Positions 3,041 to 21,400 of a DNA stretch of 31,568 nucleotides are shown piece after piece (the stretch's first letter is position 1; each line of letters begins with the position of its first letter). Origin of the DNA: a virus. The DNA is taken from the IMG/VR virus record IMGVR_UViG_3300002143_000213, positions 1 through 31,568 of that record. The stretch is one strand, 5' to 3'. A program made the position numbers and the translations under genes. The notes under the pieces were generated by a model. The model was given only the letters and a program-made list of their open reading frames with translations, ran no database searches and was not told where the DNA came from.

Positions 3041-3667
3041 TTATACGATCATAACATTTGGATATATCGAAGCTGTTCGCAACAATAGAATCATAGAATC
3101 AAAAAAAGAATAATTGTTTCTATTGATGTCTCCATAGAAGCTCCAACTTTCATAAAATGTTTTTTTACTTATACATTCCAATAATCCATTGGATGGGTTT
3201 CCTATGTAAATATTATTTGGAGAAAATCCAATTGCAACCACATAGTGCCATGTGTATCTTCCCGATCTAATAAGGCATATTACTGGTTTGTTTCTTGATA
3301 TATTATCTTCAAGTGATTCTAAATTACCTCTAAAAACACTACAAGGAATATGGTGTTTTTTTAATGTAGAAACGATGTTTTTAGGAATTGTCATTCCGTA
3401 TTTTTCGTTTTTATAAACGAACCATTCGGTTTTAGTTTCTGTTCTTATCTCGTCGTAGACATGAAATACAGAGTAGTAATCTAATACCATAGATACGCAG
3501 GCTGGCCCACACGATATATCATCAGACTGCATTTTGAATGATGAAAAATTTGAAATAAAATGATTTTTTTTAACTATAAGTTTTTCATGTAACGCCACAT
3601 ATAGGCACAAAACAGCAATCGCTATAACAAATGTGGTTACGAAAATTTGGATTCTACTTGTTTTCAT
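3041..3667 (-). CDS. Membrane-anchored C39-like cysteine peptidase
   Basis: 208 aa from ATG 3665-3667 (the open frame upstream begins only with a TTG and lacks a better RBS). Residues 7-26 form one strongly hydrophobic helix (FVTTFVIAIAVLCLYVAL), a signal anchor. The rest fits a papain-fold C39 / C39_2 peptidase. It has M46-Q47-SDDIS-C53-GPAC with the oxyanion Gln and nucleophilic Cys, YTW-H141-YVVAIG, and IYIG-N157-PSNG. That gives a likely Cys53/His141/Asn157 triad, with Asn in place of the commoner Asp. C39 enzymes cleave leader peptides after Gly-Gly or process exported peptides. Here no ABC transporter part is attached, so it may act alone at the membrane. Its start lies inside the end of the small membrane protein gene at 3654-3902, so the two are probably translationally coupled. 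Confidence 0.75.
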   Translation of the reverse strand: MKTSRIQIFVTTFVIAIAVLCLYVALHEKLIVKKNHFISNFSSFKMQSDDISCGPACVSMVLDYYSVFHVYDEIRTETKTEWFVYKNEKYGMTIPKNIVSTLKKHHIPCSVFRGNLESLEDNISRNKPVICLIRSGRYTWHYVVAIGFSPNNIYIGNPSNGLLECISKKTFYESWSFYGDINRNNYSFFDSMILLLRTASIYPNVMIV

Positions 3668-3902
3668 TGTAATATTTTTTAGATAAAATAAACCAACCAA
3701 AATATATGGCTATGCAACCAAGCAATCTAGCTCCAGCTACTGGCAATGTAATCCAGAAAACTCCTACTGCCAATGTTGTAACAGCCATAACTGTTGAAAT
3801 CCAAGATGGCAAAAATTTAATATTGAAAACGATCAATGAGATCGGACCAATCAATATAACAAACATAAAGATAAATGTAACTAAAAGAGCTAAACTTGCC
3901 AT
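3654..3902 (-). CDS. Small integral membrane protein, 82 aa
   Basis: ATG at 3900-3902. Most of the chain is hydrophobic: residues 2-27 and roughly 36-75 form two or three membrane helices (LALLVTFIFMFVILIGPISL, VMAVTTLAVGVFWITLPVAG, LLGCIAIYFGWFIL), ending in a charged tail KKYYNENK. No family recognised. Its last codons overlap the start of the C39-like peptidase by 14 bases, a strong sign of coupling and of working together. It might be a partner, a substrate or an immunity-type protein for the peptidase. It could also be an unrelated phage membrane protein such as a holin-like protein or a superinfection-exclusion factor. No clear Shine-Dalgarno. Confidence 0.65.
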   Translation of the reverse strand: MASLALLVTFIFMFVILIGPISLIVFNIKFLPSWISTVMAVTTLAVGVFWITLPVAGARLLGCIAIYFGWFILSKKYYNENK

Positions 3903-3914
3903 GTTATATGTATG

Positions 3915-4424
3915 TTATATGTTTCCGTAAACAAACATCCATTTTTCGTTATCCGAAAAAACACCTTTGTCCACATCTGACAAATAAGAAAAAACTTCAT
4001 CCCAACTTCCAAACATCATGTCGAGGTCTGCCATGCCAAAATACCAAACTGGCAAGTTTTCCTTTCCTTGAGGGCAAATTAATATGGTCGGAGTATTGTT
4101 GTCTAGGCTCTTTATGATTTCAGTATGTGTGCCTATAGTTGGAACTTTGTATGGTAAATAAGCAATTAAAACATCGGATCTGTTGACCTGAGTTAAATCT
4201 TTAAGTACGAATTTTTTCGCCAAATCTCGCATGTAATTATAATCTTTGTTTTTTTTAGCTTCGTGTATTTTTTCTGTCCATTGCTGTTTTGGATCAGAAA
4301 ATGGATCATATACTGACATGCCAAAGTGTGATTGTAATTTTTCAATTACAGGTCCTCTCCAATTGCCTTCGTCAAATTCAATTGGTCCAGAAAGATAAAC
4401 CTTTTTATTTTTCAAGTAATCCAT
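3915..4424 (-). CDS. Nucleoside 2-deoxyribosyltransferase-like protein
   Basis: 169 aa, ATG 4422-4424 with a GGATG Shine-Dalgarno-like stretch. The start KKVYLSGPIE (residues 7-16) followed by Trp22 is the signature of the nucleoside 2-deoxyribosyltransferase / DUF4406-like Rossmann-type family. Also present are DLTQVNRSDVLIAYLP (76-91), with the family's Asp-x-x-x-x-x-x-x-D pattern, and TIGTHTEI (97-104), whose Glu102 aligns with the catalytic Glu. Such enzymes swap or hydrolyse the base of deoxynucleosides or their phosphates. In a phage this would serve nucleotide salvage or base modification. The C-terminal third (LPVWYFGMADLDMMFGSW) is longer than in minimal members. Downstream and on the same strand are the membrane protein and peptidase genes; upstream is the divergent methyltransferase gene. 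Confidence 0.75.
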   Translation of the reverse strand: MDYLKNKKVYLSGPIEFDEGNWRGPVIEKLQSHFGMSVYDPFSDPKQQWTEKIHEAKKNKDYNYMRDLAKKFVLKDLTQVNRSDVLIAYLPYKVPTIGTHTEIIKSLDNNTPTILICPQGKENLPVWYFGMADLDMMFGSWDEVFSYLSDVDKGVFSDNEKWMFVYGNI

Positions 4425-4472
4425 AAAACATCCATAAAAATAAGAACAATAATAGACTAATATAATTACAAC

Positions 4473-5057
4473 ATGTTAAATGAAAAAACTCAATACTTCG
4501 ATACATCAAAAAAGATTTTAAATCTTATACCAAAAAATGGTACTATTGCAGAAATAGGGGTGTTGCGTGGTGAATTTTCAAATCAAATCAACATATTGTG
4601 CGATCCAAAAAAGTTATTCTTGATTGATTGTTGGGAAGAGCAAGATGATGAAAAATATTTACTAGACACATACAACGAAGGCGACGAACAAACGCATGAA
4701 GAAAACTATATAAATGTTTTAAAGACATTTATAAATAAAGATAATGTCAAAATAATAAAAGCCAACTCTGATTTGGCCAGCAAATTATTTGATAGAAATT
4801 TTTTCGATATGGTTTATTTAGACGTAAGCAAATACCACGAAGATGTAACGAAAGATTTAGATTTGTGGTATCCACTTGTCAAATACAGCGGTTTACTATG
4901 TTGCAGTAATTACGAAAACATAGAAGACAAATCAAGCATTCAAGTAAATGATGCTGTCAACAAATTTTGCATTAAAAATAATTTGTTTATAAGTTATATG
5001 ACATTTGAAAAAAATTCTTTTTTCGCTATATCAAAGCCTAATTTGAAATTATTTTAA
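4473..5057 (+). CDS. SAM-dependent methyltransferase, class I (Methyltransf_24-like)
   Basis: 194 aa. Motif I is IAEIGVLRGEFS (residues 25-36), the SAM-binding loop. It is followed by LFLIDCWE (48-55), with the acidic residue after strand 2 that binds the ribose. Next come VKIIKANS and YLDVSKYHEDVTKDLDLWYPLVKYSGLL (115-142), the pattern usually written DxxHxYxxVxxDLxxWxPxVKxGG. This places it near sugar- and glycan-linked methyltransferases (Methyltransf_24, TylF- or FkbM-like), rather than DNA methylases. A role in modifying a virion or cell-surface glycan fits the glycosyltransferase and epimerase genes nearby. Its TAA stop overlaps the stop of the convergent gene at 5054 through a shared TTAA. 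No clear Shine-Dalgarno; an AT element CTAATATAATTA precedes the ATG. Confidence 0.8.
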   Translation: MLNEKTQYFDTSKKILNLIPKNGTIAEIGVLRGEFSNQINILCDPKKLFLIDCWEEQDDEKYLLDTYNEGDEQTHEENYINVLKTFINKDNVKIIKANSDLASKLFDRNFFDMVYLDVSKYHEDVTKDLDLWYPLVKYSGLLCCSNYENIEDKSSIQVNDAVNKFCIKNNLFISYMTFEKNSFFAISKPNLKLF

Positions 5058-5410: not shown

Positions 5411-6016
5411 TTAAATTTTTATTTTGTAACTTACATCCACATTTATTTGAAGAGTGGGAACGCCAATGTGAGTGCAAATTTTATGCTTCTTAGATTCTTT
5501 GTTGTCCAAGTACCAATCCGCCCTTCCTTTGGAGTGTATGATATTGTTGAAGTAATCATGATTGTGACCACAGTTTTTCGATAATTGACTAAAAATTAAT
5601 TTATTCAATCTTTCTGCTTCTTTTGCATCAGATTTAATTTCTTCGACCTTTCCGCACGACATTGTGGACACATCGTGCAACATAAGTGTTGCGTTTTCAG
5701 ACATATACCTTTGATGACCCATTCCAAAAAGAATAGCTCCGCAACTCATAGCCTTGCCTTGTACGATTGTATAAATTGGGAATTTTGAATTTTGAATAAT
5801 AGCCATCATAGACAACAAGCTATAGACCTGACCACCATATGAATCAATTAATATTGGCACAAATGGCTGACCAGTTGTGAGGCATTTTTCAAAATCTTCG
5901 TAAAAACCTTTAACTGCCTCGTCATCGAATTTGTTTACCTTGACAATTACTGGCATTTCTATCAAATCTGAGGTTTTACATTTTATATTTTCATCTATCT
6001 TGATTTCTCTTATCAA
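5411..6016 (-). CDS. ClpP-like serine protease
   Basis: 201 aa with a TTG start at 6014-6016, chosen because TTAGGAG lies 7 bases upstream and the frame has no good ATG nearby. ClpP-fold landmarks are in order. PILIDSYGGQVYSLLSMMAII (54-74) is the oxyanion strand with Gly-Gly, GKAM-S91-CGAILFGMG holds the nucleophilic Ser, and NATLML-H114-D holds the His. KGRA-D167-WYL is the likely Asp. The spacing is close to E. coli ClpP (Ser97/His122/Asp171). In phages, ClpP-like proteins serve as prohead proteases or accessory proteases. With no other capsid gene nearby, an accessory or host-directed role is equally possible. The stop (TAG) of the upstream glycosyltransferase-like gene lies inside the TAGGAG, so translation is coupled. 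Confidence 0.85.
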   Translation of the reverse strand: MIREIKIDENIKCKTSDLIEMPVIVKVNKFDDEAVKGFYEDFEKCLTTGQPFVPILIDSYGGQVYSLLSMMAIIQNSKFPIYTIVQGKAMSCGAILFGMGHQRYMSENATLMLHDVSTMSCGKVEEIKSDAKEAERLNKLIFSQLSKNCGHNHDYFNNIIHSKGRADWYLDNKESKKHKICTHIGVPTLQINVDVSYKIKI

Positions 6017-6025
6017 TGTATACTC

Positions 6026-6910
6026 CTAAATTAACAATACTGGTTCTAGTTTTCTGCCTATCTTCTTCAAATAAGATCCAGCTAAATTATGCATGTAATA
6101 AGAAGCGTATGTACTTGGATTGACACGCAGCAATTCAAAAGGATCTCCGTAATTTAAACTAGAATTAATAAACATAAATTTATGAAAAAATGGAGGAAAT
6201 CCATTTTTGTAGTGTATGAAATTAAAATTATCATTATTGTCTCGCATGTGTGATTCGCAATTGGGAAGATAATTCATATAAAGTTTAGATTTATTTTTCA
6301 TAAGAATAATTGCTAACATAATTTTATATGTTTTTTCATGAACCTTTTCATTCAATCTATATTGTTTCAACGACACATAAGCTATGTGTTCAATCAATGC
6401 ATTAAAAAAATCTAATTTCATGTTGTTGAAAACAATTACAGCACCCATGCTAATCCAATTATCAGATAAAAAATCATCAGTAACATCAAATATTTCTTTA
6501 AAGTTTGGTATTTCTTCCATGAATTTATTATAATCGAAATCTAAATTGCTGGAAAAAAACACAGAAGGAAATTCGGTCTTAACACTATCTTCAAAAGGCT
6601 TGTGCAATACAACATCGCTTTCCAAAAGAGCGAAAGATGATTTCAACTCATTGTTGTCAACGAGGTTTCTTATGGAAAAAAATATATTCGCCTTTGAGTA
6701 GCCAAATTCAAATCCATGATCTGGCATTTGATACATTTGAATTCCCTGAAACGCTGTGTTGAACATATATTTTAAATTATCAGAAAGAGTATCTGCAAAA
6801 AAAGATAATTTTAAATTACTTGTAAGATTTTTTTGTATAAAACTTTCAATAAGCAATTCATTTTGCCATTGATGAAATTCATTGATTTTTGATACTAATA
6901 AATAATCCAT
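6026..6910 (-). CDS. Putative glycosyltransferase (GT-A-like)
   Basis: 294 aa, ATG 6908-6910, no obvious Shine-Dalgarno. The acidic motif LLESDVVLHKPF (95-106) looks like the metal-binding DxD region of GT-A glycosyltransferases. It is followed by NWISMGAVIVFNN and, near the C-terminus, FIHYKNGFPPFFHKF, where a His in the last third often binds the donor phosphate. These are weak, pattern-level matches; the protein may belong to a phage-specific family. It sits in an apparent - strand pair with the ClpP-like gene (9-base gap) and is divergent from the HldD-like epimerase. A sugar-transfer role fits that neighbour and the methyltransferase at 4473, but no substrate can be named. Confidence 0.5.
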   Translation of the reverse strand: MDYLLVSKINEFHQWQNELLIESFIQKNLTSNLKLSFFADTLSDNLKYMFNTAFQGIQMYQMPDHGFEFGYSKANIFFSIRNLVDNNELKSSFALLESDVVLHKPFEDSVKTEFPSVFFSSNLDFDYNKFMEEIPNFKEIFDVTDDFLSDNWISMGAVIVFNNMKLDFFNALIEHIAYVSLKQYRLNEKVHEKTYKIMLAIILMKNKSKLYMNYLPNCESHMRDNNDNFNFIHYKNGFPPFFHKFMFINSSLNYGDPFELLRVNPSTYASYYMHNLAGSYLKKIGRKLEPVLLI

Positions 6911-6930: not shown

Positions 6931-6942
6931 AGGAAAATGTTT

Positions 6943-7851
6943 ATGAAAATAATAGTAACAGGTGCCTCTGGTTTTATTGGAACGAATTTAGTCAAATATT
7001 TAAAAAATAAAAAAATGCATGTTATTGCAGTTTGCGATTACACTTGTGAATCTAGTGATATCGCAGATGAAGCTATTTTTACTGGTTTAATTGGATTGAA
7101 AAGTAAATATTTACTAACAAAAAAAGCGGACGCTATGATTCACATGGCAGCAAACAACGATACTTTATCAGAAGATACCGAACAAATGATGAGACACAAT
7201 TATCTTTCATCCAAAAAGATGCTTAAATTAGCAAAAAAACTTAATTGCAGTCGATTTGTTTACGCATCAAGTATAGCGGTGTATGGTAACAAAAAAGACC
7301 AAGAAGACCCTCTTAACATTTACGCTACATCTAAACTAATGTTTGATAATTTCATAACAGATAAAACTGCGTTCAATGGCGAAAAAGATATAACAATAGT
7401 TGGTTTGCGATTATGCAATGTTTATGGACCCTATGAATGCATTAAAGAAAGAAGAATGAGCTTTCTTGGACGAATGTTAAAGAACATGATACTTAACAAG
7501 ACAATTGATTTATTCGAAGAAACAGGCAACAAAAGAGATTGGGTCTATGTAGAAGATGTTTGCGAAGCGATTTTCAAATCACTTCAAGCAAGCAAACACG
7601 GTATTTACAATATTGGATCTGGAAGTACTATTTCTTTTATTGATTTGTTTGAAAAACTAGCTCGTATTACAAATTATAAAAATAAACCAAAATTAATTAA
7701 AAACAAAAACATAAAATCGTATCAAAACATAGAAACAAACGACATTTCATTGGCCGAAAGTGATCTTGGGTATAAACCTAAGTACGATTTAGACAAAGGC
7801 ATTGAAAAATACTACAAAGAAATTAAAGAGAATTATCCTGCCACTTTTTAG
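6943..7851 (+). CDS. NAD-dependent sugar epimerase/dehydratase, HldD-like
   Basis: 302 aa from ATG 6943, chosen over the ATG at 6937 because AAGGA (6930-6934) is 8 bases from it and only 2 from the other. It is an extended SDR with IIVTGASGFIGTNLV at the N-terminus (Gly7/10/13 bind NAD(P)). The catalytic set is VYASSIAVYG (107-115) with Y127-ATS-K131. NVYGPYE is the usual substrate-domain motif. HMAANNDTLSED...NYLSSKKML and GNKRDWVYVEDV...GIYNIGSG resemble ADP-heptose 6-epimerase (HldD/RfaD) more than UDP-glucose epimerases. It would supply an activated sugar, perhaps for the phage's glycosyltransferases. The TAG stop overlaps the end of the convergent nucleotidyltransferase gene by 29 bases. 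Exact substrate uncertain. Confidence 0.85.
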   Translation: MKIIVTGASGFIGTNLVKYLKNKKMHVIAVCDYTCESSDIADEAIFTGLIGLKSKYLLTKKADAMIHMAANNDTLSEDTEQMMRHNYLSSKKMLKLAKKLNCSRFVYASSIAVYGNKKDQEDPLNIYATSKLMFDNFITDKTAFNGEKDITIVGLRLCNVYGPYECIKERRMSFLGRMLKNMILNKTIDLFEETGNKRDWVYVEDVCEAIFKSLQASKHGIYNIGSGSTISFIDLFEKLARITNYKNKPKLIKNKNIKSYQNIETNDISLAESDLGYKPKYDLDKGIEKYYKEIKENYPATF

Positions 7852-9265
7852 TTGATAAAAATCTTTTTATTCCTTCTACTTCGTCTCCAACTGGCTTTCT
7901 GTTGTGGAAAGCATAATAAATAGGATTGTATTCCATAGATTCATCGTTCTTAGCATCGAAGTCTAAATCGTTTTCGTCATGATTGATGAAATTATCAAAT
8001 TTATTGCCATCGTGACCATTGAGGTTCATCCAATTTTTAAGTTTGTTTTTAGACAATCCGCATGGAGCATGCTTAAGGTCATAAAACATCATAGGGTCGT
8101 ATGAATTTTTTGCCCAATTGTGTAATTTCACAAGATGACAAATGTCGCCAGCCTCAGTTGACTTATATCCCAAAGACATCAAATCTTGTTTGGCATCTTC
8201 TGGTTCAGAGTTTTTATAAATATGAGCCAAACTTAAATGTTTGTCTCTATTTATTTCTGGAATATTTGAATCAAATTTAGAACTTGGGAATAAATGTTTT
8301 ACAATACCTAAACTATGCAAGGTACTTAAAAATTTCTTAGTGTTTACATCTGGATGAGACAAACCTTTTAAAAATTCATCATGTAATATTTTTTTATCAA
8401 ATCTTAAATTGTCCATTTTAGAAATAGAATTAATCAATCCTTGATCTGGTTTTTCTCCAAATCTATTCAACATACTAGCATATCTCATAATAACATGAGG
8501 ATCTTCTTCGATTCTTTTCGACATATTGTTGTTTATAAAAACAATTCTTTTATTTTTCAAATCACTTAAACCACCAAATGGATCTAACAAGTCTGCGTTA
8601 TCGCCATCTGAATTATTCAAAGGAATATACATGGAATTAAATGTCAAATCTCTATTCATGCCATCTTCTTCAATTGAAGAAGCTGCGTTGTTTTCATCTG
8701 GAGAAAGATATTTGCTCTTTGGAGCATTCGATAATGTCGAAACATTAAAGGTTTGTCCTTTAATGTGAACTTGGAATTCTATTTCTTTACCAGATTTGTT
8801 CCATCTACTTGCGTGGAAGTGCTTATTATCTGAATCTTCTGGCAAATCTTCGTATTTACTTCTATTTGATTTAGGGAAGTTTTCTGGTTTTACTTCTGTA
8901 AAATCATGTTCTTCATCGGACAAGATCATACGGATTTCTGATGGCGTAGCATCAGTCACTATATCGTAATTTTTAATTGTTTTGTTAGATAGATGGTCTC
9001 TTACCGCACCACCCGTAAGCCAAATTTTCTTCTTTTTAAGTTGTGGCTCTATTTCACCTTTGTTTTTTTGTATTGTTGTATAACCAAGTTTGACATTTTT
9101 AGAATTATCAAAAGCCTTGATTAAATCTCTCAAATTTGCATGAGAAGACTTGTTGACAGAAAACGGACTAAAGTCCTTTTCTTTTTGTAATTTAATCTTT
9201 GAAACTAAAGGCAAATCGCCATTGGTTTCTTTTAACAAACAATATTTTTTAAAAAAATTCGACAT
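7823..9265 (-). CDS. tRNA nucleotidyltransferase / poly(A) polymerase family protein (CCA-adding-like)
   Basis: 480 aa, ATG 9263-9265 with GGAGAG upstream. The class II head domain is clear. It shows IWLTGGAVRDHL (81-92, the GG-x-VRD turn), KNYDIVTDATPSEI (98-111), NRDLTFNSMYIP (the R-R-D-F-T-I-N equivalent), LLDPFGGLSDLKNKRI, and RIEEDPHVIMRYASMLNRFG (the ExDPxRxxR helix). These enzymes add CCA or A tails to RNA 3' ends. The first carboxylate of the DxD metal-binding motif is Asn99 (codon AAT), with Asp101 kept. An N-terminal extension of about 78 residues and a roughly 95-residue stretch between the motifs make it longer than usual. The N-terminus MSNFFKKYCLLKE is loosely like the head-targeting signature. 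It is the longest gene of the - strand block. Confidence 0.9.
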   Translation of the reverse strand: MSNFFKKYCLLKETNGDLPLVSKIKLQKEKDFSPFSVNKSSHANLRDLIKAFDNSKNVKLGYTTIQKNKGEIEPQLKKKKIWLTGGAVRDHLSNKTIKNYDIVTDATPSEIRMILSDEEHDFTEVKPENFPKSNRSKYEDLPEDSDNKHFHASRWNKSGKEIEFQVHIKGQTFNVSTLSNAPKSKYLSPDENNAASSIEEDGMNRDLTFNSMYIPLNNSDGDNADLLDPFGGLSDLKNKRIVFINNNMSKRIEEDPHVIMRYASMLNRFGEKPDQGLINSISKMDNLRFDKKILHDEFLKGLSHPDVNTKKFLSTLHSLGIVKHLFPSSKFDSNIPEINRDKHLSLAHIYKNSEPEDAKQDLMSLGYKSTEAGDICHLVKLHNWAKNSYDPMMFYDLKHAPCGLSKNKLKNWMNLNGHDGNKFDNFINHDENDLDFDAKNDESMEYNPIYYAFHNRKPVGDEVEGIKRFLSTKKWQDNSL

Positions 9266-10187: not shown

Positions 10188-11489
10188 ATGTCAAGAAATA
10201 ATACAACGCAATGGTGGATTAACGAACAAGAAATAGACCCAAGTGTAAATCAGCCAACGGCCGCTATTGCACCAGATGCAAACGTACAAGATCCAAATGC
10301 TACAATACCACCAGCTGATACCAACCAACAAGTTCTCAATCAATCTCCTCCAGAATCCTCAAAAGAAAACGAGGAAGATGATGTGTCGGAAGATCCTAAT
10401 TCTCCAGACATGCCAGAGGAAACCGAAAATAATGATGAAAATTTTGAATTATGGAAAGATACATTTTTCAAAGAATCAATCAAAGGCGATGCCAACAAGC
10501 TAATGGATCTAATTCACAAAATTAGAGACATGGAACTCGATTCTTATCCAAGAAAATTCGTTGAAGATAATCTTCAAATATGTTTTTTAAGACAAAATGC
10601 TAATATTCAAAAAGCTAGTGATAGTATTAGAAAATTGCTTCATCAAGAATTAGACAAAAACAATCCAGCAGTTTCTTTGGTAAACCATATTTCACAAACT
10701 CTAAAAGAATCAAATGAAATAAATCCTATATTTATAAAAATCAAAGGCTTGCTTGGAATGAAAGCAGATTTACATAGAAAATTTATCGCATCGCTAATTG
10801 GCGGAGTCCAAGTTGGAACTGGCGGTAATTTAGAAGATGTAGTTTATAACGAAAGAGATTTTTCAATCAGAATTTCAACTAGATTTAACGATAAATGGGG
10901 AAGAGTCGATATCGGTAAATGGTCTATGCGTGAAGATGATCCAAAAAAATTCCTTAGTGATCCAGAAATAAAAAGATTAGAAGACGGAAGTCCAGAAGAA
11001 AAAGATGTCCTCCGAAAAAGAATTTGTTTAGAAGCCTTGGCCGAGTCTTTCAAGAAAAGAGCCTTTATCATCAATGTGGCTAACGAAGATGGCACAGTAT
11101 ACACACTCGGATGGGATATATCTAATTGTATTAGAAACGCATACGAAGAAGGCAAACTTATAATCAAGTTGTCTAAATTAGAAAATTCAGAAGCTATGAT
11201 TTCAGATGATGGCAGCATAGTTTCATATGTGGATATAAAAATAAAATACGCAAAAGAATCTGGAGAATTGGATGACGAAGGAAATCCTTCAGTCGAAGAA
11301 CTTGATTTCATGGAAAGAATCGATGGCGTTATGTTTTTAACTGCAAATTACGATACAGTAAAAGAAGCCGTAAGTAACATGCAAGGAATAATATTAAAAG
11401 AAGAACCATATAAAGGTAATCCAAGTGATCTTAGATCACTTCAAAGATGCGTTCCAAATTCGAGTGAAATTTTACTTCGTCAATGTTAA
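10188..11489 (+). CDS. Hypothetical phage protein, 433 aa, disordered acidic N-terminus
   Basis: ATG at 10188, 4 bases after the previous stop, with AAGGA inside the end of the previous gene. The first ~85 residues are low-complexity, rich in Pro, Asn, Asp and Glu. The remainder is a mixed alpha/beta protein. A helical part (90-200) leads to a segment with IRISTRFNDKWGRVDIGKW, then beta strands (RAFIINVANEDGTVYTLGW) and an acidic loop near residue 360. Cys residues appear at the very end (RCVPNSSEILLRQC). No family recognised. Its place at the head of the virion-gene block, and its co-directional tight spacing, suggest a structural or assembly protein of the head or neck. Confidence 0.7.
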   Translation: MSRNNTTQWWINEQEIDPSVNQPTAAIAPDANVQDPNATIPPADTNQQVLNQSPPESSKENEEDDVSEDPNSPDMPEETENNDENFELWKDTFFKESIKGDANKLMDLIHKIRDMELDSYPRKFVEDNLQICFLRQNANIQKASDSIRKLLHQELDKNNPAVSLVNHISQTLKESNEINPIFIKIKGLLGMKADLHRKFIASLIGGVQVGTGGNLEDVVYNERDFSIRISTRFNDKWGRVDIGKWSMREDDPKKFLSDPEIKRLEDGSPEEKDVLRKRICLEALAESFKKRAFIINVANEDGTVYTLGWDISNCIRNAYEEGKLIIKLSKLENSEAMISDDGSIVSYVDIKIKYAKESGELDDEGNPSVEELDFMERIDGVMFLTANYDTVKEAVSNMQGIILKEEPYKGNPSDLRSLQRCVPNSSEILLRQC

Positions 11490-11499
11490 AGGAATTTAT

Positions 11500-11979
11500 A
11501 TGAGAAATTTTTTAGAATTCGTAGAAAGAAAACAAAGAGAATCACTTAAACATCTTAAGCTAATAGCAAATATGTTAGAAAATGATTTTTCAATAAGTAA
11601 ATTTTTAGAAAACAAAGATCCTTACATATTTGTGAAAGTTCCAAAAGAAAATAAGTCACTTAGTTTTTCTGGATTGAGAATATATGAAATTGGTGACTGT
11701 ATGGCGTTTAGAATCCAACAAGATCCCGATACAGAACCATACGGAATGGCCTACTCAATAAAAATCAATGAAATGTTTAATGATTTCATGAGCGATATGG
11801 ATACAGAAGAAGAAGTTCTTAAAGAAATTAAAAAATCAATCATCAAAGAAATTAAAAACTTTTTCATCAAGACGCAAAAAGCAGAAGAAGACATGATAAA
11901 TAAAGGGTCAGACCAAAAGAATCTTATCATGAAAGCTGGAGGAACAGATTATTCTGGTATGGTTTTAAATAAATATTAA
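11500..11979 (+). CDS. Hypothetical phage protein, 159 aa, capsid-targeting-like N-terminus
   Basis: ATG at 11500 chosen for its AAAGGA 7 bases upstream; the open frame begins at 11425 but that part overlaps the end of the previous gene. The product begins MRNFLEFVERKQ, with Phe at 4 and Phe at 7, as in several other proteins here. It has a probable beta sheet in the middle (YIFVKVPKENKSLSFSGLRIY, DCMAFRIQQDPDTEPYG) and a long charged helix (EEVLKEIKKSIIKEIKNFF). It ends KAGGTDYSGMVLNKY. No family recognised. It lies between the 433-aa protein and the Cys-rich protein in the same transcriptional block. Confidence 0.65.
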   Translation: MRNFLEFVERKQRESLKHLKLIANMLENDFSISKFLENKDPYIFVKVPKENKSLSFSGLRIYEIGDCMAFRIQQDPDTEPYGMAYSIKINEMFNDFMSDMDTEEEVLKEIKKSIIKEIKNFFIKTQKAEEDMINKGSDQKNLIMKAGGTDYSGMVLNKY

Positions 11980-11994
11980 TCATTTGAGGTAAAT

Positions 11995-12246
11995 ATGAAA
12001 AGTTTCAAAGAATGGAAAAATATAAATGAAAATTGTAGTTGTGGTTGCGGAAGCGATTGCGAATGCAATGACGGTGGAGCAAAAGAAGGAATGGAAATGC
12101 ACTTGAAAAACCTTCGAATTATCGCACATTACGCTCAAAAAATCCATGAAATGGTCGAAAATGGAGCAGACCTCGAAGAATGGCACCAAAACAAAATTTC
12201 CGTGTGTCGTGCCTATCTTTCAGATATCGGACACGCATTTGACTAA
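11995..12246 (+). CDS. Small Cys-rich phage protein, capsid-targeting-like N-terminus
   Basis: 83 aa with TGAGGT 6 bases before the ATG. It begins MKSFKEWKNINE, then a cluster C14-S-C-G-C-G-S-D-C-E-C24, which could bind a metal ion. A helical hairpin follows: EMHLKNLRIIAHYAQKIHEMV, then LEEWHQNKISVCRAYLSDIGH. The second part, with its L-x-x-W-x-x-x-K-I-x-x-x-x-x-Y-L-S-x-I pattern, recurs as I remember in small proteins of marine T4-like phages, where no function is known. The N-terminus resembles the T4 internal-protein head-targeting peptide, and Ile-Asn-Glu at residues 10-12 would be a fitting prohead-protease site. It ends 9 bases before the large glycosyltransferase gene. Confidence 0.7.
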   Translation: MKSFKEWKNINENCSCGCGSDCECNDGGAKEGMEMHLKNLRIIAHYAQKIHEMVENGADLEEWHQNKISVCRAYLSDIGHAFD

Positions 12247-12255
12247 GGAAAAATC

Positions 12256-14784
12256 GTGAATCTATTATTGCTATTCCATTCCATTCAAGAAAATAGTGGA
12301 ATGGAAAACTTTGTTATAGACCTGAAAAGATTTTCAAAATATAAAATAACAATACTGTATCAAAAATCAATTTCATCAAATGTAAAATCAGAATTTGATT
12401 GCCTTCAAATAGATGAAACCAATGAATTTTTCATAAAAAAATTTGATTGTTTGATTTTCTTTAAAGAATATCGAAAAAAATTCGATCTTACAAAAAAACA
12501 CTTCAGTAAAATCAAAAAGATATGTGCGATATACGAACCAATAAGTTTCTCAGATTACTTTGATTCTTATGATTTTCAAATTTGCGAAGGCGTTATAACA
12601 AATTTTTTAACCAATACAATAAAACTTAACGCTCTCACGGACTTACCAAAATTTCACGCATATACCGGCTTAGATTTCTCTCAACTTCCAGAAATAAAAA
12701 AAAACACGCAATTCACAGTAGGAGTAATAGCCAAAGACATTTCTAAAATAGAAAAAACAATAGCTAAAGCCTCTTGTGATTTCATTCATTACCAAAAAAA
12801 AGATCAAATAAACTTCTACAACCAATCCGATGTTGTAATTATCGAAGATCAAGATGATGTTCAATTTCATATTTGGAAATGCTTATATTACAACAAAATA
12901 TTGATGATTAAAAAAACTCACTTTACTCAAGAATTTATAGACGATTATAAAAATGGATTTTTTTACAAAACTAGAAAAGATTTATACGAATTACTAATCA
13001 AAGTAAAAAATAAAAACAATTCAAAAATGATAGAATTTCAAAACGAATCATGCAAAACAGCAAACATAGAATTAAGCATAGAAAAATTACAAGAAAATAT
13101 AAAATTGATTTTAGGATTCGACAAAAAAAACGCAAAAACGACATACTATGATTCTGGGATCGATTTGTCATACGAATCAAATGATGTTTGGAATACAAAT
13201 GATGTAGCACTTTGTTCAGCACTAGACGAATCAGGAATGAGATTTTTTTCTTGCGTGGATAAAGAAATATTCAAAAATGTAGAAAGCGAATTCATTGGAA
13301 TACTACACAACGATATTAAAGATTACAAAAAATTAGATCCATGCAAAGGTCTTTTTGTTTTTTCAGAATACCTGAAGAAATCAATTGAAAAAAACACCAC
13401 CAATGTTCCAATAGAAAAAATTTACTATCCAGTAAAACAATATCAAAAGAAATTCTCGTACACCAACTTTATTGACGATAAAAAAATAGTTTTTTTACAA
13501 AAAAAATACCAACCATTTGTTCAAAAATCTTTCTCGAAAATAATAATCAAATTGACAGAAACAAACATAGTCAAATACGAAAAAATACTAACTAGTAGCT
13601 TGGTGTACTTTAATTTTGATGAATTTATCCAATTAGATTTGTTCTTAGAGTGCTTGGAGAGAAACACTCCTATGTTGCTGAAAAGACACCCAATAGCAGA
13701 AGAATACTTGGGAGAAAACTACCCTCTTTTTTTCACTAAAAAAGAAGATATAATCGAAATATCTTGCGATAAAGTTCTAGCAGCACATAATCATTTGATA
13801 AATATAGATAAAGAAAAATTTAGAATACACACATTCATTAAATCAATTTTTAATTCTAAAACATACAAAGAACTTCCAGTAACAAAACCAAAAACATTAA
13901 TGCGTATAACACTTGGGAGAACTAGTAAAAGCGGATACGAAGTTACATTTCATTGCATAAAAAGTCTAATTAAAAATTATGGATACAATGATTTTGATTA
14001 TTGCATTTGTCACAACAATATATCAGAAAGAAAATTATTCGAATTAAAAAAAACATTTTCAACAATAGATTCACCGTTAAAATATTATAAACAAAAAAAT
14101 TGCGAGCTACCAATTGATGTTAGATTTCCAAAAGGAACAGACGCTACTATTAATCACCGTATTTCTGCTGGAAGTTTATGGAAATTGTGTCCTGCTCGTT
14201 TGAGACCTAATGCTCATGAAATTATTATCGACAACGACATAGTTTTTTTAAAACAAATACCAGAAATAAATCAGTTTTTAAAAAGTGAATTGCCTCTTGC
14301 ACTAGAAGATGTGTCGATACATATGGGAGTTTACGAATCGATTAACGAGTTCAATGATTGCTTTGCTTTGAATTCTGGAATTATCGGACTGCCACCAAAC
14401 TTTAAATTTGAAAAAAAACTTTGTTCTCTTTGGGATACATGCAAACCTTCGAAAAAAGTAAATGGAGGAGACGAACAAGGACTAATTACATCTGTTCTCA
14501 CAAAAGGCGAACATATTTTAATTCCTAGAAGTCATGTAATTGGAATGCACCCCAATAAACTTCATGTTAATTCTTTTAGTTCTGGAACAACGACATATCA
14601 AATACTTAAAGACAACACGCAAAGAGACTTTATGGATTATGAAAGAATAGATTTTAATAAATTGTGCAATAAAACATACGCTTTACACTTTTTTCAAATA
14701 AACAGACAGTCAATAACACATAATGCTTGGGATAAATTCCTGAATTACTACAAATACCTTATTTCCCCAAAGTCTATCATATAA
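12256..14784 (+). CDS. Large multidomain glycosyltransferase (842 aa)
   Basis: GTG start at 12256 with AAGGA 7 bases upstream. Three parts can be seen. Residues 1-290 look like a GT-B half-domain pair: LLLLFHSIQENSGMENFVIDL is the usual GT4-type opening with Gly-Met-Glu. Residues about 330-540 form a second GT-B-like unit, with FIGILHND, CKGLFVFSEYLKKSI and KRHPIAEEYLG (476-486), a motif of polysaccharide-synthesis transferases. Residues about 549-842 are a GT-A-like domain with HEIIIDNDIVF (D659-N-D661, metal site) and GGDEQGLIT (737-745). A protein with two or three transferase units could build a short glycan on a virion protein. It is embedded in the structural block, just before the tail genes, so a virion target is plausible. 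Domain borders are by eye. Confidence 0.75.
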   Translation: MNLLLLFHSIQENSGMENFVIDLKRFSKYKITILYQKSISSNVKSEFDCLQIDETNEFFIKKFDCLIFFKEYRKKFDLTKKHFSKIKKICAIYEPISFSDYFDSYDFQICEGVITNFLTNTIKLNALTDLPKFHAYTGLDFSQLPEIKKNTQFTVGVIAKDISKIEKTIAKASCDFIHYQKKDQINFYNQSDVVIIEDQDDVQFHIWKCLYYNKILMIKKTHFTQEFIDDYKNGFFYKTRKDLYELLIKVKNKNNSKMIEFQNESCKTANIELSIEKLQENIKLILGFDKKNAKTTYYDSGIDLSYESNDVWNTNDVALCSALDESGMRFFSCVDKEIFKNVESEFIGILHNDIKDYKKLDPCKGLFVFSEYLKKSIEKNTTNVPIEKIYYPVKQYQKKFSYTNFIDDKKIVFLQKKYQPFVQKSFSKIIIKLTETNIVKYEKILTSSLVYFNFDEFIQLDLFLECLERNTPMLLKRHPIAEEYLGENYPLFFTKKEDIIEISCDKVLAAHNHLINIDKEKFRIHTFIKSIFNSKTYKELPVTKPKTLMRITLGRTSKSGYEVTFHCIKSLIKNYGYNDFDYCICHNNISERKLFELKKTFSTIDSPLKYYKQKNCELPIDVRFPKGTDATINHRISAGSLWKLCPARLRPNAHEIIIDNDIVFLKQIPEINQFLKSELPLALEDVSIHMGVYESINEFNDCFALNSGIIGLPPNFKFEKKLCSLWDTCKPSKKVNGGDEQGLITSVLTKGEHILIPRSHVIGMHPNKLHVNSFSSGTTTYQILKDNTQRDFMDYERIDFNKLCNKTYALHFFQINRQSITHNAWDKFLNYYKYLISPKSII

Positions 14785-14809: not shown

Positions 14810-15352
14810 ATGGCAGATAACTTATTTATACCTTCTATAATTGAAGATGTTTATGGACCAACCGCAAGAGCCAATCAATATGGCCCTATTTACAATCAAA
14901 TGGTCAAAGCTGTAAACAAAGGAAGTTTAATTGTATTTAACTATATTTTCCACAAACCGGGTCACGATCCGTACCCTTTAGTGTTACTTACTGATGTGAA
15001 TTATCCGCAGAAAAACCCAATACATATCAGAGGCATAAATCTTCATTATTTGACATTTCCAACAATTAAAAAATTACTCCAACCTAATGTGAATAATCTA
15101 GCCTTTTCTTATGCAAATATAAAAGAAGATTCATATATAAGTGGAGCTTTTAGACAATACAGAAGAACTGGGATCAGACAGCTAAAAACTCTTAATACAA
15201 CATTTCTTCTCAATGTTCTTGCCTCTGTAAGATCGTTTAACCCAAATGAAATTGAAGCTATTCGTAAGTCTGTTAGGGAACAATTGCAAAGACTTACCAA
15301 TCCGAGTGCAAACGAAATGGTCTCACAGAGTAATAAAATAGAGAATAAATAA
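14810..15352 (+). CDS. Conserved phage virion-module protein, 180 aa, function unknown
   Basis: ATG at 14810 without a clear Shine-Dalgarno. The sequence has features I recall from proteins in the tail region of large T4-like phages. These are VNKGSLIVFNYIFHKPGHDPYPLVLLTDV, then IHIRGINLHYLTF, FRQYRRTGI and FLLNVLASVRSFNPNEIEAIRKSVREQLQR. The first half would be a small beta barrel (SH3-like, with a processed Pro-rich loop) and the second a helical bundle. It may be a tail or neck component, or a DNA-end or completion protein, since such proteins sit near the tape measure in related genomes. I cannot name a T4 counterpart. The gene is followed by a 56-base gap with a late-promoter-like box. 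Confidence 0.7.
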   Translation: MADNLFIPSIIEDVYGPTARANQYGPIYNQMVKAVNKGSLIVFNYIFHKPGHDPYPLVLLTDVNYPQKNPIHIRGINLHYLTFPTIKKLLQPNVNNLAFSYANIKEDSYISGAFRQYRRTGIRQLKTLNTTFLLNVLASVRSFNPNEIEAIRKSVREQLQRLTNPSANEMVSQSNKIENK

Positions 15353-15408: not shown

Positions 15409-18400
15409 ATGGCAGACACAGTAGACATACAAAACCTTAACTTGACCATGGGAGAAATAAAAGCTCTTCTCATGAGCATTAACACCGAAAAAAAAGATGA
15501 TCGACGCACTACTCCTCCAGACATGTCGGAACTCAAGAAAATATTAGAAGATGCTTTTAAGCCATTCACGGAAGAAATGAAGGCAAACACTAAAGCTGTC
15601 GAAGGAATGAAAGAACTTACCAAAGCTATAGAAGAATCTAATAATTTAAGTAAAAAGAAAAAAAGTAAAAATACGACAGGACCTACAACACCATCATCGA
15701 CTGCATCGACAGCGGGACCGAAAACGCCAAAAGTACCAAATGGAAGAAACAACAGTACTAACAAAAAACTAGACAAATTAATAGATATTTTATCAAAGAA
15801 ATCAAATAACAAAGATAAAGAATCATTTAGTCCATACATGCAAGAAAATGACGAACCAGAACAAACTCCAGAAGACAAAAAACGAGCAAAAAAAGACAGA
15901 ATAGACAATGATAAAAGATACAGAACAAGAAACCTTGTAAGTTCTTTCAAAGATGTGGCTTCGATTACAGATGATGTTTTCGCTGGCGTTGGCGATGCAC
16001 ACGAAAAGGCATTCAAAGGAATAATCAAAGATGAAAGAACCTTTGTATCTTCACAAAAAGACATTGCATATGAAACAACAGGAGCTTTGTCTACAAATAA
16101 AAAATTACTAAGCGAATATACGCTATTAGAAAAGACATCTCAAAAAACTGGAGCATCAAGAGAAGAATTTCAAAAAAATCTTGGTAATGCTTTGAAATCT
16201 GGAAATAGAGAATTGAAAATGGCAAAGGCCATCACGACAGCCCAATTAAACACCGAAAAACAACTCGGATTAGAAGCTGGCGAACTATCTGATACTTTCC
16301 AAAAATTAAATACCCAATATGGCATGAGTGAAATGCAAATTGCCGAAATGGGTCGTGGTATGCGTGAAGTAGCTAAAAATTCAGGATTGACCGGAAAAGA
16401 ACTAGCAAAAGCCGTGCAAAGTAGCATGCAATTCATAGAAACAATGAGAAATGCTGGCCAACTAACTTCAGCAGCAGCAAAAAACATCCAATCTATATCT
16501 GCAAGCGCACAAAAATTCGGTATCGCACAAGAACTAGCACCTCTTTTGACTGCAATGTCTAGTAGTACAGATCTAATGATGAAAGCATCTTCTGAAACTA
16601 AAAATTTCTTGTTTATATCTGCAAACGCAGTAGGCAGAACAACAGACCTTTTAAATGGTTCGATTTTAAAAACAAAACAAGGAACCAAAGATATTGCTAG
16701 GGGCATGAGAGAAACACTTAAGATGTTCGGAGTCGAAAGTTTAGAAGCCATAGAGGGCATGACAGATGCACAAAAATTCAATATTAATATGACTTTGAAA
16801 ACTGCTTTTGGTATCGAAGTAGATCAAGCAAAGCGTCAAATTTTATCTCTCGAAGAAGGAACTAAAACTTTAAGTGAAAAGTTGGCAGACTTAAACAAGG
16901 AAAAAAAGAAAAATCTTAATTTAGAAGAAAAAGCAATAATTGTAGAAAAAGAAAGGTCTCTTAAATTATCGGCAAGTTTTGCCGTCTTAACTGTTCTAGA
17001 CGAAGCATCTAAAAATGCAAAAAATATGGGAGAAGCATTCGCTAACTTCAATGCTAGGGCCAGCACATATGCAGACGAATTAAATGTTCTTGGATTAACA
17101 GCTGCTTCCGATAAAGAAGTTGCAAAAGGAGCATTTGTAAGTGCGATAAACAATATAAATCAAAGTTTAAAAGCTGGCGGGAAAAAAGAACTTAAAATTT
17201 CTTCTTCGGAAATAGAAAAAGCAATCAACAATCCAGAAGCAATGAGAGTGCTATCTGCAAAACTCACAGCAAAAGAGCAAGAAGCCTCTACTGCTGCAAA
17301 GGCACAACTTGATCCAGCAAGAAGCATGGAGCAAACCCTTAGAGAATATAATGATTATTTTAGAACTTGGAGCGGTTCCGTACTAACATTGTTAGGCACA
17401 TCACAAATAGGAAATGCCATAACAGGAATATCCACCGTAGCTAGTATTGCAGCTACAACAATATCTAAGGGAATAAACCTTAGAGACTCATTTGAAAATG
17501 TTATAAACTCAATAAAAGCCAAGTGGGAAGAAGTTAGAAACCCAACACCTAGAGCCTCAACAGAACCTATAGTAATTCGAGATGCCATTCCGCCAAATGC
17601 AGCAGAAACATCAACGGCAAAAGCTACTGAGAGTCTGGAAAAAGCAGGAACAAGCGGTCACTCTCTTTCGACACACGATCATCACGCTGAAAAGATTTTA
17701 AATAAAATACTAGAAAGTTTAAAATTAATTGATCAGTCTATAAACAAATGCTGTGTCAACAAAAATGCTCCGCCAGAAACAACAACTGGAAAATCAGATG
17801 CGTCAACTGCGTTAACGCAATCCAAACCAACAACTACACAAAGTTTCAGTCAAACCTCTGAAGAAAAACTTGCGACTGCTAAAAGAATGGAAGATAAGAA
17901 TTGGGACCCAGTTGCAGAGAAAAAAATTCAACAACAACAAAAAGCAGACAAAATCAAAGCGGCTGGAGTTACAACTACTTCGCCAACAGTACCACCAACT
18001 GTAGCCACCACCGCAGCCGGAACAACACCTCCTCCCGCTGTGCCAAGTACTGGTAAAATAGACAAAGAAGCTAATGATGCACTTAAGCAAAGATTAGAAG
18101 AAAAAAAGGCTATTAGAGAAGGAAGGGCTTCTAAAATACCACAAGTAGGAGAAAAAGAAAGCGCAGACAAATCACTTCAAAGATCCAAAGACAAACATGA
18201 AAGAAAAATGATCAAAGAAGAAAAGTTCCTAAACAAGATCGAAAGAAAAAACACCTTAGACGATAAAATAACCAATAAAAAAGAAAAATTCAACGCAAAA
18301 GATCAAGGAGCGATGAATAAAAAAGAAAAAGGAAGCATGAAAAATCAAGGCGCTCCTTCTATCATGGGATTTGATATATCTTCTTTAAGCGGACAAGCCG

Positions 18401-21400
18401 AAGAAATGGCTAAAGCAGCACCAGCAATAATGATTATTGGCGCTGCGATATTACTATTGGGAACAGCACTTGTAGTCATAGGCGATCAAATTCTAAAAGA
18501 ATTAAATCTAGATGTTGGAAGAATCATGGAAGTTGGAGTGGTAATAGCAGCAGTCGCAGGTGCTGGTGCTGCCTTTATTATGGGTTCAATGGCGATGATC
18601 GAACAATATAAAGATATGAATTCAGAAGGCTTCACAAGTGGAGCGTACGGTCTTGCTTTCAAAATAATTAATATGATACCAGCAATGCTTTTACTTGGAT
18701 TAGCAGTAATGGGATTAGGAGCAGCATTAATAGCAATTGGAAGACTTGTTTTAAGCATAGCAGACATAAACACAGACAACATTGTCGAAACAGGTGCGTT
18801 AATCGGAGCTATAATGGGCGCTGCTGTGGCCATGATAGTCGGAGTTTCAGAAGTCTTAGAAGCAACAAAAGATTTTAGTTTCACTGGTTTTGCTAAAAAT
18901 GCTCTTATGTTGGCAGGCAAATTAGCATTATGTGCAGTTCCATTACTGCTTATTAGTGCTGTGTTAATAGGTCTTGGTTCTGCTTTAATTTTCATGTCAA
19001 AAAGAATTCTAGATACTTTATTGTTAGATTCAGCAACCATACAAGAAACTACAAAAAGCGTACTTTCTTTAATTCTTGGATTAACTGCAATAATGGCCTC
19101 AGTAGCATTAGCAACTGGTGTGTTTTTGGCAATCGGAGCAGGAGCCAATGCATTGTTCTTAGGGCCACAAGCAGTAGTTACTTGGGCCATGATAGGATCA
19201 GCAGCAGCTTTCCTCATAATATTAACTCCTATTATCATAACTTTAGCAGCTATGCTTGTTAGTTTTTGTGCAAAAGTTCTTGAGTCTTCAGATTTGTCTC
19301 AACAAAAAATAGAAGAAACAATAACTAAAGTCATAACACTGATAGCAGGATTAACACTTATATCAGTCGCAATAGGACTAGCCTTGTGGGGACTTTTAGC
19401 TGCTGGTGGACAAGCCATGTTATTTTTTACAGGCCCACAAGGAATAGCTGCTCTTAAGGCGATTGGCGTTGGTGCTGCTATGCTTTTCTTTGCCATGCCG
19501 ATCATGTTGTATTTAGCTTCCACATTAATGAAGTGGTGTGCTGGCATTCTAAGCGGTGCCGATTTAGACACAGCTAAAATAAAAGAAACAGTAGAGACAG
19601 TAACTGCTCTTATTGGCGGATTAGGACTACTAGCTGTAGGAATGGCAGCAGCTGTATATGGACTATTCGCTCTTGGTCTTGGTGCTAAAATGATGTTAAA
19701 TCCTCTTGTTCTAGGCGCCATAGCAGCAGGCGCTGTTGCACTTAATTACGGACTTCCAATTTTCCTAGAAGTTTCAGCATCTGTTTTTAAATTTTGCAGC
19801 AAGATAATTTCTGGAACTGGATTAGACAAAAAACAAATTGATGAAACTACAGAAACTATAAAATCTTTATTTGGTGGTTTAGGAACTTTGATTTTCCAAT
19901 TGTGGAAAACAGGAGGTATGATTCTTTACCTTCTTAATCCAATAAACATCGGATTAATATCTCTTGCATTTGGAGTTTTTCTTCCTTATGCGACAGAAAT
20001 GATTTCTGGAATTTCTGTTTTTATTATAGATTTTGTGAAAGCACTTGGAAAGTTAATCAAGAATGTTTCCAATCAAGTAGGAGGATTAAAAGGAGTCGAG
20101 TTTTTAGCTAAATTCTCAGAAGACATGACTAAAGCAATTATTTCTGTAATAGAAATGGTAAGAGTAATAGGATCATCATTAGTTTCATTGACAGCCCCTA
20201 AGTATATATTTTGGGGCAATAGCGTTATGGAAGATATAAAAGAATTTTCAGTTGGTTTCTCCGAATCCATGGAAATCATATGTAGAGATGTAGTCAAAAA
20301 AGGAATTATAGATCCTATATTAAACAATTTTAACAAAAGCGGTATGAAGAAAACCAGTCAAGCACTTAAGGCTTCTGTTCTTATAAGTCAGGCGTTGTCA
20401 AGTATAGCAGACATGTTGGAGACTCTTAGTAATATTGTGACTTATTTTGGCAAAGACACAAGCTGGTGGACACCTTGGCGTAATCCTAGTATCGAACAAA
20501 TAAAAGAATTAGGAATGTCATTTTCTAAACATTTCGCAACTATAATTGTAACTTTGAATACTGGGATAATACAACCATTAGTTGATAATTTCAAAAACTT
20601 AAAGTCGCTGGGAACAGCCGCATCGGCAGCTAAAGGAATCGGGGCTGTATTTTCAGGCATTGCAGAATTTTTGAAAGCGTATTCGGAACAAATCAAACCA
20701 TTGACAGAAGCAAAAGGCTGGCTCTATGGTTTTCGAACTACTGGGATTGAAGATATAAAAACTTCTCTTGATAGTTTGTCTGCACCATTGACGGCAATAT
20801 ATGGTGGAGTAAAAACTTTAGTACAAGATTTAAATATCGGCAAAAAAGACATGAAGGATTTAGACAAAATACTTCCATCATTAGATATGTTTACGAGACT
20901 AGCTTCAGCCATGGGAACAATGTCAAATCAAATGTTAAATCTACAAAAGAATACAGAAAAAACAGAATACGATACAGACAATAGCGTTGTAGCAAACATC
21001 TGGTTCCTTAGAGCATTAACGACAGGAATAAGCAAAGCAGATAAGGCAGCGCAAGGATCTAAAGACATGGCAAAAACAATCACTAGCGTAATATTAAATT
21101 TATCTTCTGTTATTGATGCGATGGATGCGGCACTTAAATCAAACAACAAAGACCCTAAATCATTAGAAGAATCTATTAAGAGATTTGAACAGCTAACGAC
21201 GATAACAAGTAAAGTTTCAAGCATGATAGATAATTACAACACAAGTGCAAAAACAGCAAACGAAATCAAAACAAATAAAAACGGTGGATTCGCAGGAGCA
21301 TCTAAAAACATAAAAGAAGCAGTAGACCAAACATATGATTTCGTGAAAATAATAACAAAGGCAATAGACACAAAAGGAAAATATCAAGAAATTGAAAATG

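Follow-up and report, generated by a model that had tools for sequence, protein, structure and literature searches.

The 842-aa product of a single open reading frame (ORF) in the virion gene block of a phage related to the huge phages is well supported as a glycosyltransferase, and comparison of gene order shows its predicted gene to be an insertion in a conserved virion operon. The stretch of DNA that was analysed, referred to here as the window, covers a virus record of 31,568 bases and is only a 31.6-kb fragment. Phage glycosyltransferases as such are ordinary; the novelty lies in the two unlisted viral families, in the fact that they are fused, and in the insertion of the fused gene into the virion operon of a huge phage. 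An earlier note on this DNA, made from the sequence alone, had proposed a fused glycosyltransferase in the virion gene block, and it was right in this: the fusion is shared by a second contig and the block order is conserved in two relatives.

The fused reading frame and its domains

The ORF and its parts are listed below.

12256..14784, + strand: fused glycosyltransferase, whole ORF, 842 aa (GTG start; fusion also in contig L002; dN/dS 0.13)
12256..13152, + strand: N-terminal segment, residues 1-299, GT-B-like by eye only (no family match; selection 0.11)
13153..13890, + strand: middle domain, residues 300-545, predicted GT-B fold of the retaining GT4 type with altered donor loops (viral homologs, model)
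13885..14781, + strand: C-terminal domain, residues 544-842, predicted GT-A fold, GT8/LARGE/WbbM-like, active-site residues intact (alignment A5, AlphaFold2, VIA)

The 842-aa ORF is present as claimed, on the + strand and with a GTG start, and the same fused frame occurs in a second, independent contig (L002; IMGVR 3300027782_005853) with 95% identity as far as residue 729, where that contig stops; the comparison therefore covers residues 1-729. Over these residues, dN/dS by the Nei-Gojobori method was 0.13 overall, and 0.106, 0.178, and 0.121 for residues 1-300, 301-545, and 546-729, respectively. All three segments of the protein are under purifying selection, and because dN/dS is low in each, the gene was considered real and the three segments to have been kept. 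That the fusion is an artefact of assembly or annotation joining separate genes, as the separate stand-alone forms in other phages might suggest, is hardly credible: L002 has the same frame at 5% divergence, which contradicts an artefact for residues 1-729, the ORF has no internal stop, and selection acts across the joins. The protein, whole and per domain, had no usable match in Pfam, PHROGs, NCBIfam, or PDB sequences, and no tblastn match in 50,697 phage records. A short back-translated motif, which reaches close relatives only, was scanned twice against 84,980 prokaryote genomes and likewise returned no relatives.

The first relative of the C-terminal domain came from L004, a phage contig of 234 kb that encodes it as a stand-alone protein of 251 aa (32% over 226 aa, E 9e-22), and the family was enlarged with a degenerate DNA pattern (WKxxPxR...ExxxDxD core), followed by a profile scan. 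The pattern returned 34 stretches, eight of which (WKL[VL]PYSVASV...) were rejected as off-frame chance matches; another, in L038, was rejected as out of frame. The family, termed here the C family, comprises proteins of ~240-300 aa encoded by about two dozen viral contigs, of which many come from jumbo phages; these contigs reach 527 kb, several carry two paralogs, and the large ones were read as phage because a T4-type portal is present in six and a phage sheath gene in four. A 20-member alignment gave no meaningful Pfam or PHROG match for any member, and its profile had no match among PDB sequences. In the family tree, the fused C domain lies within a 10-row clade (support 100/99) in which every other row is a stand-alone protein, so the fusion is likely a derived state.

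An AlphaFold2 model of the C domain, based on an alignment of 24 family sequences (A5), had a pLDDT of 82.5 and a pTM of 0.85. When it was compared with known structures (Foldseek, VIA-align), 976 of the 998 compared chains reached Z ≥ 8, and the top structural classes were GT8/GT6/GT24/LARGE enzymes, with VIA Z-scores of 15.9 for LARGE1 (227 residues aligned, 4.0 Å), 15.0 for WbbM, 14.7 for both UGGT and glycogenin, and 14.5 for LgtC. Thirteen residues are invariant in the 24 sequences (W642, K643, P646, R648, E655, D659, D661, G691, N706, G708, P714, Q741, and H811), position 740 holds Asp or Glu throughout, and the residue behind this acid-Gln pair is Gly in 22 of the 24, giving [D/E]-Q-G as opposed to the invariant [D/E]-Q-D of GT8. 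The LgtC active site consists of D103-x-D105, N153, and D188-Q189 (PMC7826918); residues of this type recur in the C family in the same order, with the DxD and the equivalents of Asn153 and the His present in 24/24, equivalence being set by order and fold. The C-terminal GT-A domain, claimed earlier from D659-N-D661 and GGDEQG, was thus borne out by a homologous family, a confident model, and an invariant D659-x-D661; both motifs were found, GGDEQG at residues 737-742. The model and alignment strongly support a GT-A superfamily domain with a predicted GT-A fold and DxD metal site, which would work like a GT8-type enzyme; membership in GT8 is not claimed. PF01501 (GT8) matched none of the 20 aligned members, hhalign of the family profile against E. 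coli WaaJ/WaaO, two GT8 sequences only, gave a probability of 0.1%, and a profile-profile test against HtrL failed. The domain was not filed as GT8 because Gly replaces the third Asp and the profile comparison with the two GT8 proteins failed.

The middle domain, residues 300-545, matches stand-alone viral proteins in three contigs (L048, L054, and L062; E 1e-24 to 8e-16), and a profile scan added further members in L068, L070, L071, and L073. In an AlphaFold2 model of residues 1-545, the confident part spans 305-543, and this part most resembles SenB (Z 15.5, 3.2 Å), PimA (14.9), BshA (13.8), and a chlorovirus transferase (13.6); its best 50 structural matches have Z of 12.2-15.5 and are mostly GT4-type enzymes. 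The Pfam GT4/GT1 profiles (PF00534, PF13692, and PF13439) had no match in the window, and across the middle family only PF13439 was detected, in L068 at E 0.058. The model nonetheless confirms a predicted GT-B (GT4-like) fold for this domain. Two elements conserved in the stand-alone relatives, the G-x-x-x-R loop and the D-x-x-A-N-N-T stretch, are absent from the fused copy, and because these two loops were lost its own catalysis is uncertain.

The earlier note had seen GT-B motifs both near the N-terminus and in the middle of the protein. In the middle they are backed by a homologous family and a model, whereas for residues 1-299 family and relative searches gave nothing but the near-identical L002, the pLDDT was about 40 in the model of residues 1-545, no link to the middle-family profile was found, and matches to PDB sequences were chance-like only. 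Three glycosyltransferase domains are accordingly not established, the N-terminal 300 aa being without an assignment. The opening of the segment ('SGMENFV') and its ending look GT4-like by eye only, which is a lead rather than a result.

With one segment lacking detectable relatives and the next missing two loops that its relatives conserve, only the GT-A domain might transfer sugar, the middle and/or N-terminal parts being dead modules that bind the acceptor or a partner. This is possible, at somewhat less than an even chance, but purifying selection acts on both segments (0.18 for the middle, 0.11 for the N-terminal) and the middle domain retains H351, E465, C466, E482, and E483. Such a division of labor would fit either target, virion or host surface.

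Genes of the middle and C families lie ≤3 kb apart in three phage contigs (L048, L054/L059, and L062), so that two neighbouring genes elsewhere are one predicted chain in the window. Beside these pairs are genes for a WbsX glycosyltransferase (PF14307, E 2e-103 and 3e-101), radical SAM proteins, and methyltransferases. Each family also occurs in another fusion: a middle-family domain with a GT2 domain (PF00535) in a 616-aa protein (L068:7974-9821), and a C-family domain with a GT2-like domain (PF13641) in a 493-aa protein (L058:9968-11446).

The virion operon and the accessory sugar genes

The window's gp6 (29306-30862) is 46% identical over 99% of its length to its counterpart in LR756511.1, an uncultured phage of 595,163 bases (L079), and judged by its genes the window virus is kin of this 595-kb phage, for which a literature search found no paper mentioning LR756511. 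A second relative is a 61.7-kb contig (G024; IMGVR 3300027782_006460, L080). Gene order is common to all three, running from a CCA-type nucleotidyltransferase through 9314, 9602, 10188, 11425, 14810, the tape measure, 24229, 24791, 25127, 26660, gp25, and gp6 to 30831, and it includes a T4-like contractile-tail block with gp25, gp6, and gp5-like OB genes (PF04965, E 9.7e-16; phrog_219, E 3.5e-28; PF04717, E 1.9e-4, just below cut-off). The claimed position of the transferase inside a virion gene block agrees with this conserved order. Its immediate surroundings are as follows.

11425..11979, + strand: upstream flank, conserved block protein (37% to the LR756511 homolog, 31% to the G024 homolog)
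11995..12246, + strand: 83-aa cysteine-rich ORF in the same extra segment as the transferase, 9 bp upstream of its start
14810..15352, + strand: downstream flank, T4 gp2-like DNA end protector (phrog_429, E 1.6e-7; 36% to LR756511, 35% to G024)

In LR756511 the homologs of the two flanking genes are separated by about 237 bp, and in G024 they overlap by 1 bp (TAATG), with no transferase between them in either, whereas the window has an extra 2.83 kb at the same junction, made up of the 83-aa ORF and the transferase. The spacing is tight, with 9 bp to the preceding gene and 25 bp to the following one. In LR756511, no C-family match was found anywhere in the record, in a search without a positive control there. 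The particle can be built without the transferase, since the gene is missing from this junction in both of the closest relatives. The gene-order comparison shows what is read here as insertion of the transferase gene into a conserved virion operon, so that a phage-encoded transferase is co-located with virion genes, one of the features expected of a phage virion-glycosylation system. Matches to the late-promoter sequence TATAAATA were not above chance.

The 83-aa ORF has no homolog at the corresponding junctions of LR756511 and G024. It carries the motif CSCGCGSDCEC and is found only with the inserted transferase; it may be a metal-binding or partner protein.

Several other features of the block were observed. 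The CCA-adding/poly(A)-polymerase-like gene (7823-9265) has kept its place beside the virion block in the window virus and both relatives. The tape-measure-like protein (15409-24228) has 2939 aa, compared to 2661 aa in G024 and 1640 aa in LR756511, and these differences in size imply different tail lengths in syntenic relatives. The LR756511 block has other insertions (L079:26444-28337 and 32197-34602), a DNA-methyltransferase-like island among them, as well as caspase-like, HAD, SprT-like, and phosphoglycerate-mutase-like genes (by eye); because of these accessory insertions, the block appears to take up cargo repeatedly. Elsewhere in the window are a STAS-domain gene (2425-2790), a C39-peptidase-like gene with an N-terminal hydrophobic stretch (3041-3700), and a Clp-protease-like gene (5411-6016; 50% to LR756511).

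Three further genes in the window may be involved in sugar metabolism.

4473..5057, + strand: Methyltransf_24 methyltransferase (PF13578, 33.4 bits, above the cut-off of 26.3)
6026..6910, - strand: putative GT-A-like transferase (30% over 93 aa, E 1e-7, to L080:6273-7106)
6937..7851, + strand: NAD-dependent NDP-sugar epimerase/dehydratase, HldD-like (PF01370, E 8.7e-41; phrog_540; TIGR02197)

The Methyltransf_24-like enzyme of the earlier note was confirmed by PF13578. Its HldD-like epimerase does belong to the epimerase/dehydratase family (PF01370), and the protein is 34% identical to E. coli RfaD; HldD itself is not established, as the TIGR02197 (HldD) score of 201.4 bits is below the curated cut-off of 274.6. 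The protein at 6026 had no match in protein-family searches.

In G024, a cluster beside the virion block (L080:370-7106) contains a stand-alone C-family gene (370-1167, 34%) adjoining a carbamoyltransferase gene (E 3e-53), a glycosyltransferase-like gene (3661-4431), and a UDP-galactopyranose mutase gene (E 4e-112), the last overlapping the 6026-like gene (L080:6273-7106). In the window, the methyltransferase, 6026, and epimerase genes fill the equivalent accessory region, which is bounded by the 3915 homolog and the CCA gene. Cooperation of these three with the fused transferase is plausible because the same site in G024 holds the mutase, the carbamoyltransferase, and the 6026-like gene; a set that makes one sugar, transfers it, and caps it, as the earlier note had it, would be a step further. 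The mutase of G024 suggests the use of galactofuranose in this phage lineage.

Proposed activity and target

On balance, the evidence leans toward a single-chain, multi-domain enzyme in which the GT-A domain transfers, the GT-B domain helps, and a glycan on a virion protein is extended. The C domain would catalyze metal-dependent, retaining GT-A transfer, in which, following the LgtC pattern, D659/D661 and H811 would hold the metal and nucleotide-sugar, and N706 and E740-Q741 the sugar. The middle domain might add a neighbouring sugar or, with two donor-side loops lost, mainly hold the acceptor. The gene was inserted into the conserved virion operon at a point where the two flanking genes abut in relatives, and because of this location it is probably translated late, along with the particle proteins. 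The full enzyme would most likely lengthen a short glycan carried by a virion protein, and the products of the nearby genes (epimerase, methyltransferase, and 6026) would shape the sugar.

From the position of the gene, virion glycosylation appears to be the most likely role, and it was favored over the host surface because the insertion lies within a tightly packed virion operon. Mycobacteriophages are reported to use transferases of their own to glycosylate capsid and tail-tube proteins (PMC12363180). However, many relatives in the C and middle families sit in large glycan islands, which might just as well act on the host surface. In the main rival reading, the enzyme would modify a glycan of the host's LPS, capsule, or S-layer, for instance as a barrier to superinfection, its site in the operon being incidental; the nearby HldD-like epimerase fits such a role, and the glycan clusters of jumbo cyanophages have been read as serving outer-polysaccharide modification (PMC7824862). 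A late, tightly packed virion position would be odd for an early host-modifying gene, though, and no membrane glucosyl-transfer genes (Gtr/flippase) were recognized in the window; a host-surface target was therefore rated the less likely of the two.

A third potential acceptor, modified bases in phage DNA that would be glucosylated as by T4 beta-glucosyltransferase, is very improbable. A chain of that enzyme does appear low in the Foldseek list for the model of residues 1-545 (E 0.036), and a nucleoside deoxyribosyltransferase-like gene is present at 3915, but the match is weak and outranked by many GT4 enzymes, the C domain belongs to a GT8-like type that acts on protein or oligosaccharide acceptors, and no hydroxymethyl-base gene was recognized in the window.

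Returning to the virion, a more specific version of its glycosylation can be offered tentatively, at well under an even chance: in huge phages of this lineage, members of two virus-specific families, which act elsewhere as separate neighbours, may have been fused into a dedicated assembly-line transferase, embedded in the virion operon, that glycosylates the phage's own tail or head, with sugars that could include galactofuranose.

Comparison with known systems

The two glycosyltransferase families, for which viral contigs are the only source to date, were missed by Pfam, PHROGs, and NCBIfam, and the WKxxPxR...HExxxDND signature can be used by others to annotate C-family genes. They also link the glycan genes of jumbo phages directly to a particle-building operon. 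If the particle is glycosylated, this would set a tailed phage beside the giant algal viruses with their self-sufficient glycosylation, and it could account for how the largest phages are protected or attach.

At the domain level, GT8 enzymes (LgtC, glycogenin, and E. coli WaaJ/WaaO) and the C-terminal domain of WbbM share with the C domain a GT-A fold and, in the same order, a DxD, an Asn in an N-S/A-G strand, an acid-Gln pair, and a metal-binding His. The C family differs from GT8 in lacking profile similarity, in the Gly rather than Asp behind the acid-Gln pair, and in its own motifs, WKxxPxR and HExxxDND. Similarly, the middle domain has the same fold as the GT4-type GT-B enzymes SenB, PimA, and BshA (Z 13.8-15.5 over about 225-234 residues), but with only about 6-12% identity, a short length (about 245 aa), two conserved loops absent, and no Pfam match.

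The closest architectural counterpart is A111/114R of PBCV-1, an 860-aa, three-domain viral glycosyltransferase that acts on capsid glycans (PMC7826918). Both are one chain of about 850 aa built from modules of about 300 aa, and both combine an LgtC/WbbM-like GT-A with a GT-B. A111/114R serves the virus's own capsid protein; however, PBCV-1 is a eukaryotic algal virus, and its module order is GT-A, GT-A, GT-B, whereas the order in the window protein, compared by architecture, is N-terminal segment, GT-B, GT-A. The window protein further differs in that two of its modules have stand-alone phage relatives and its gene lies in the virion operon of a tailed phage.

Among phages, Che8 gp110 and Corndog gp38 of mycobacteriophages are likewise phage-encoded and are reported (cited in PMC12363180) to sugar-coat capsid and tail proteins; neither the window protein nor its relatives had a tblastn match in the 50,697 phage records (chance-level at most). 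The glycan clusters of jumbo cyanophages (PMC7824862) resemble the window in that jumbo phages carry epimerase, transferase, and methyltransferase genes, but those clusters form separate islands, whereas the transferase of the window is fused and embedded in the virion operon.
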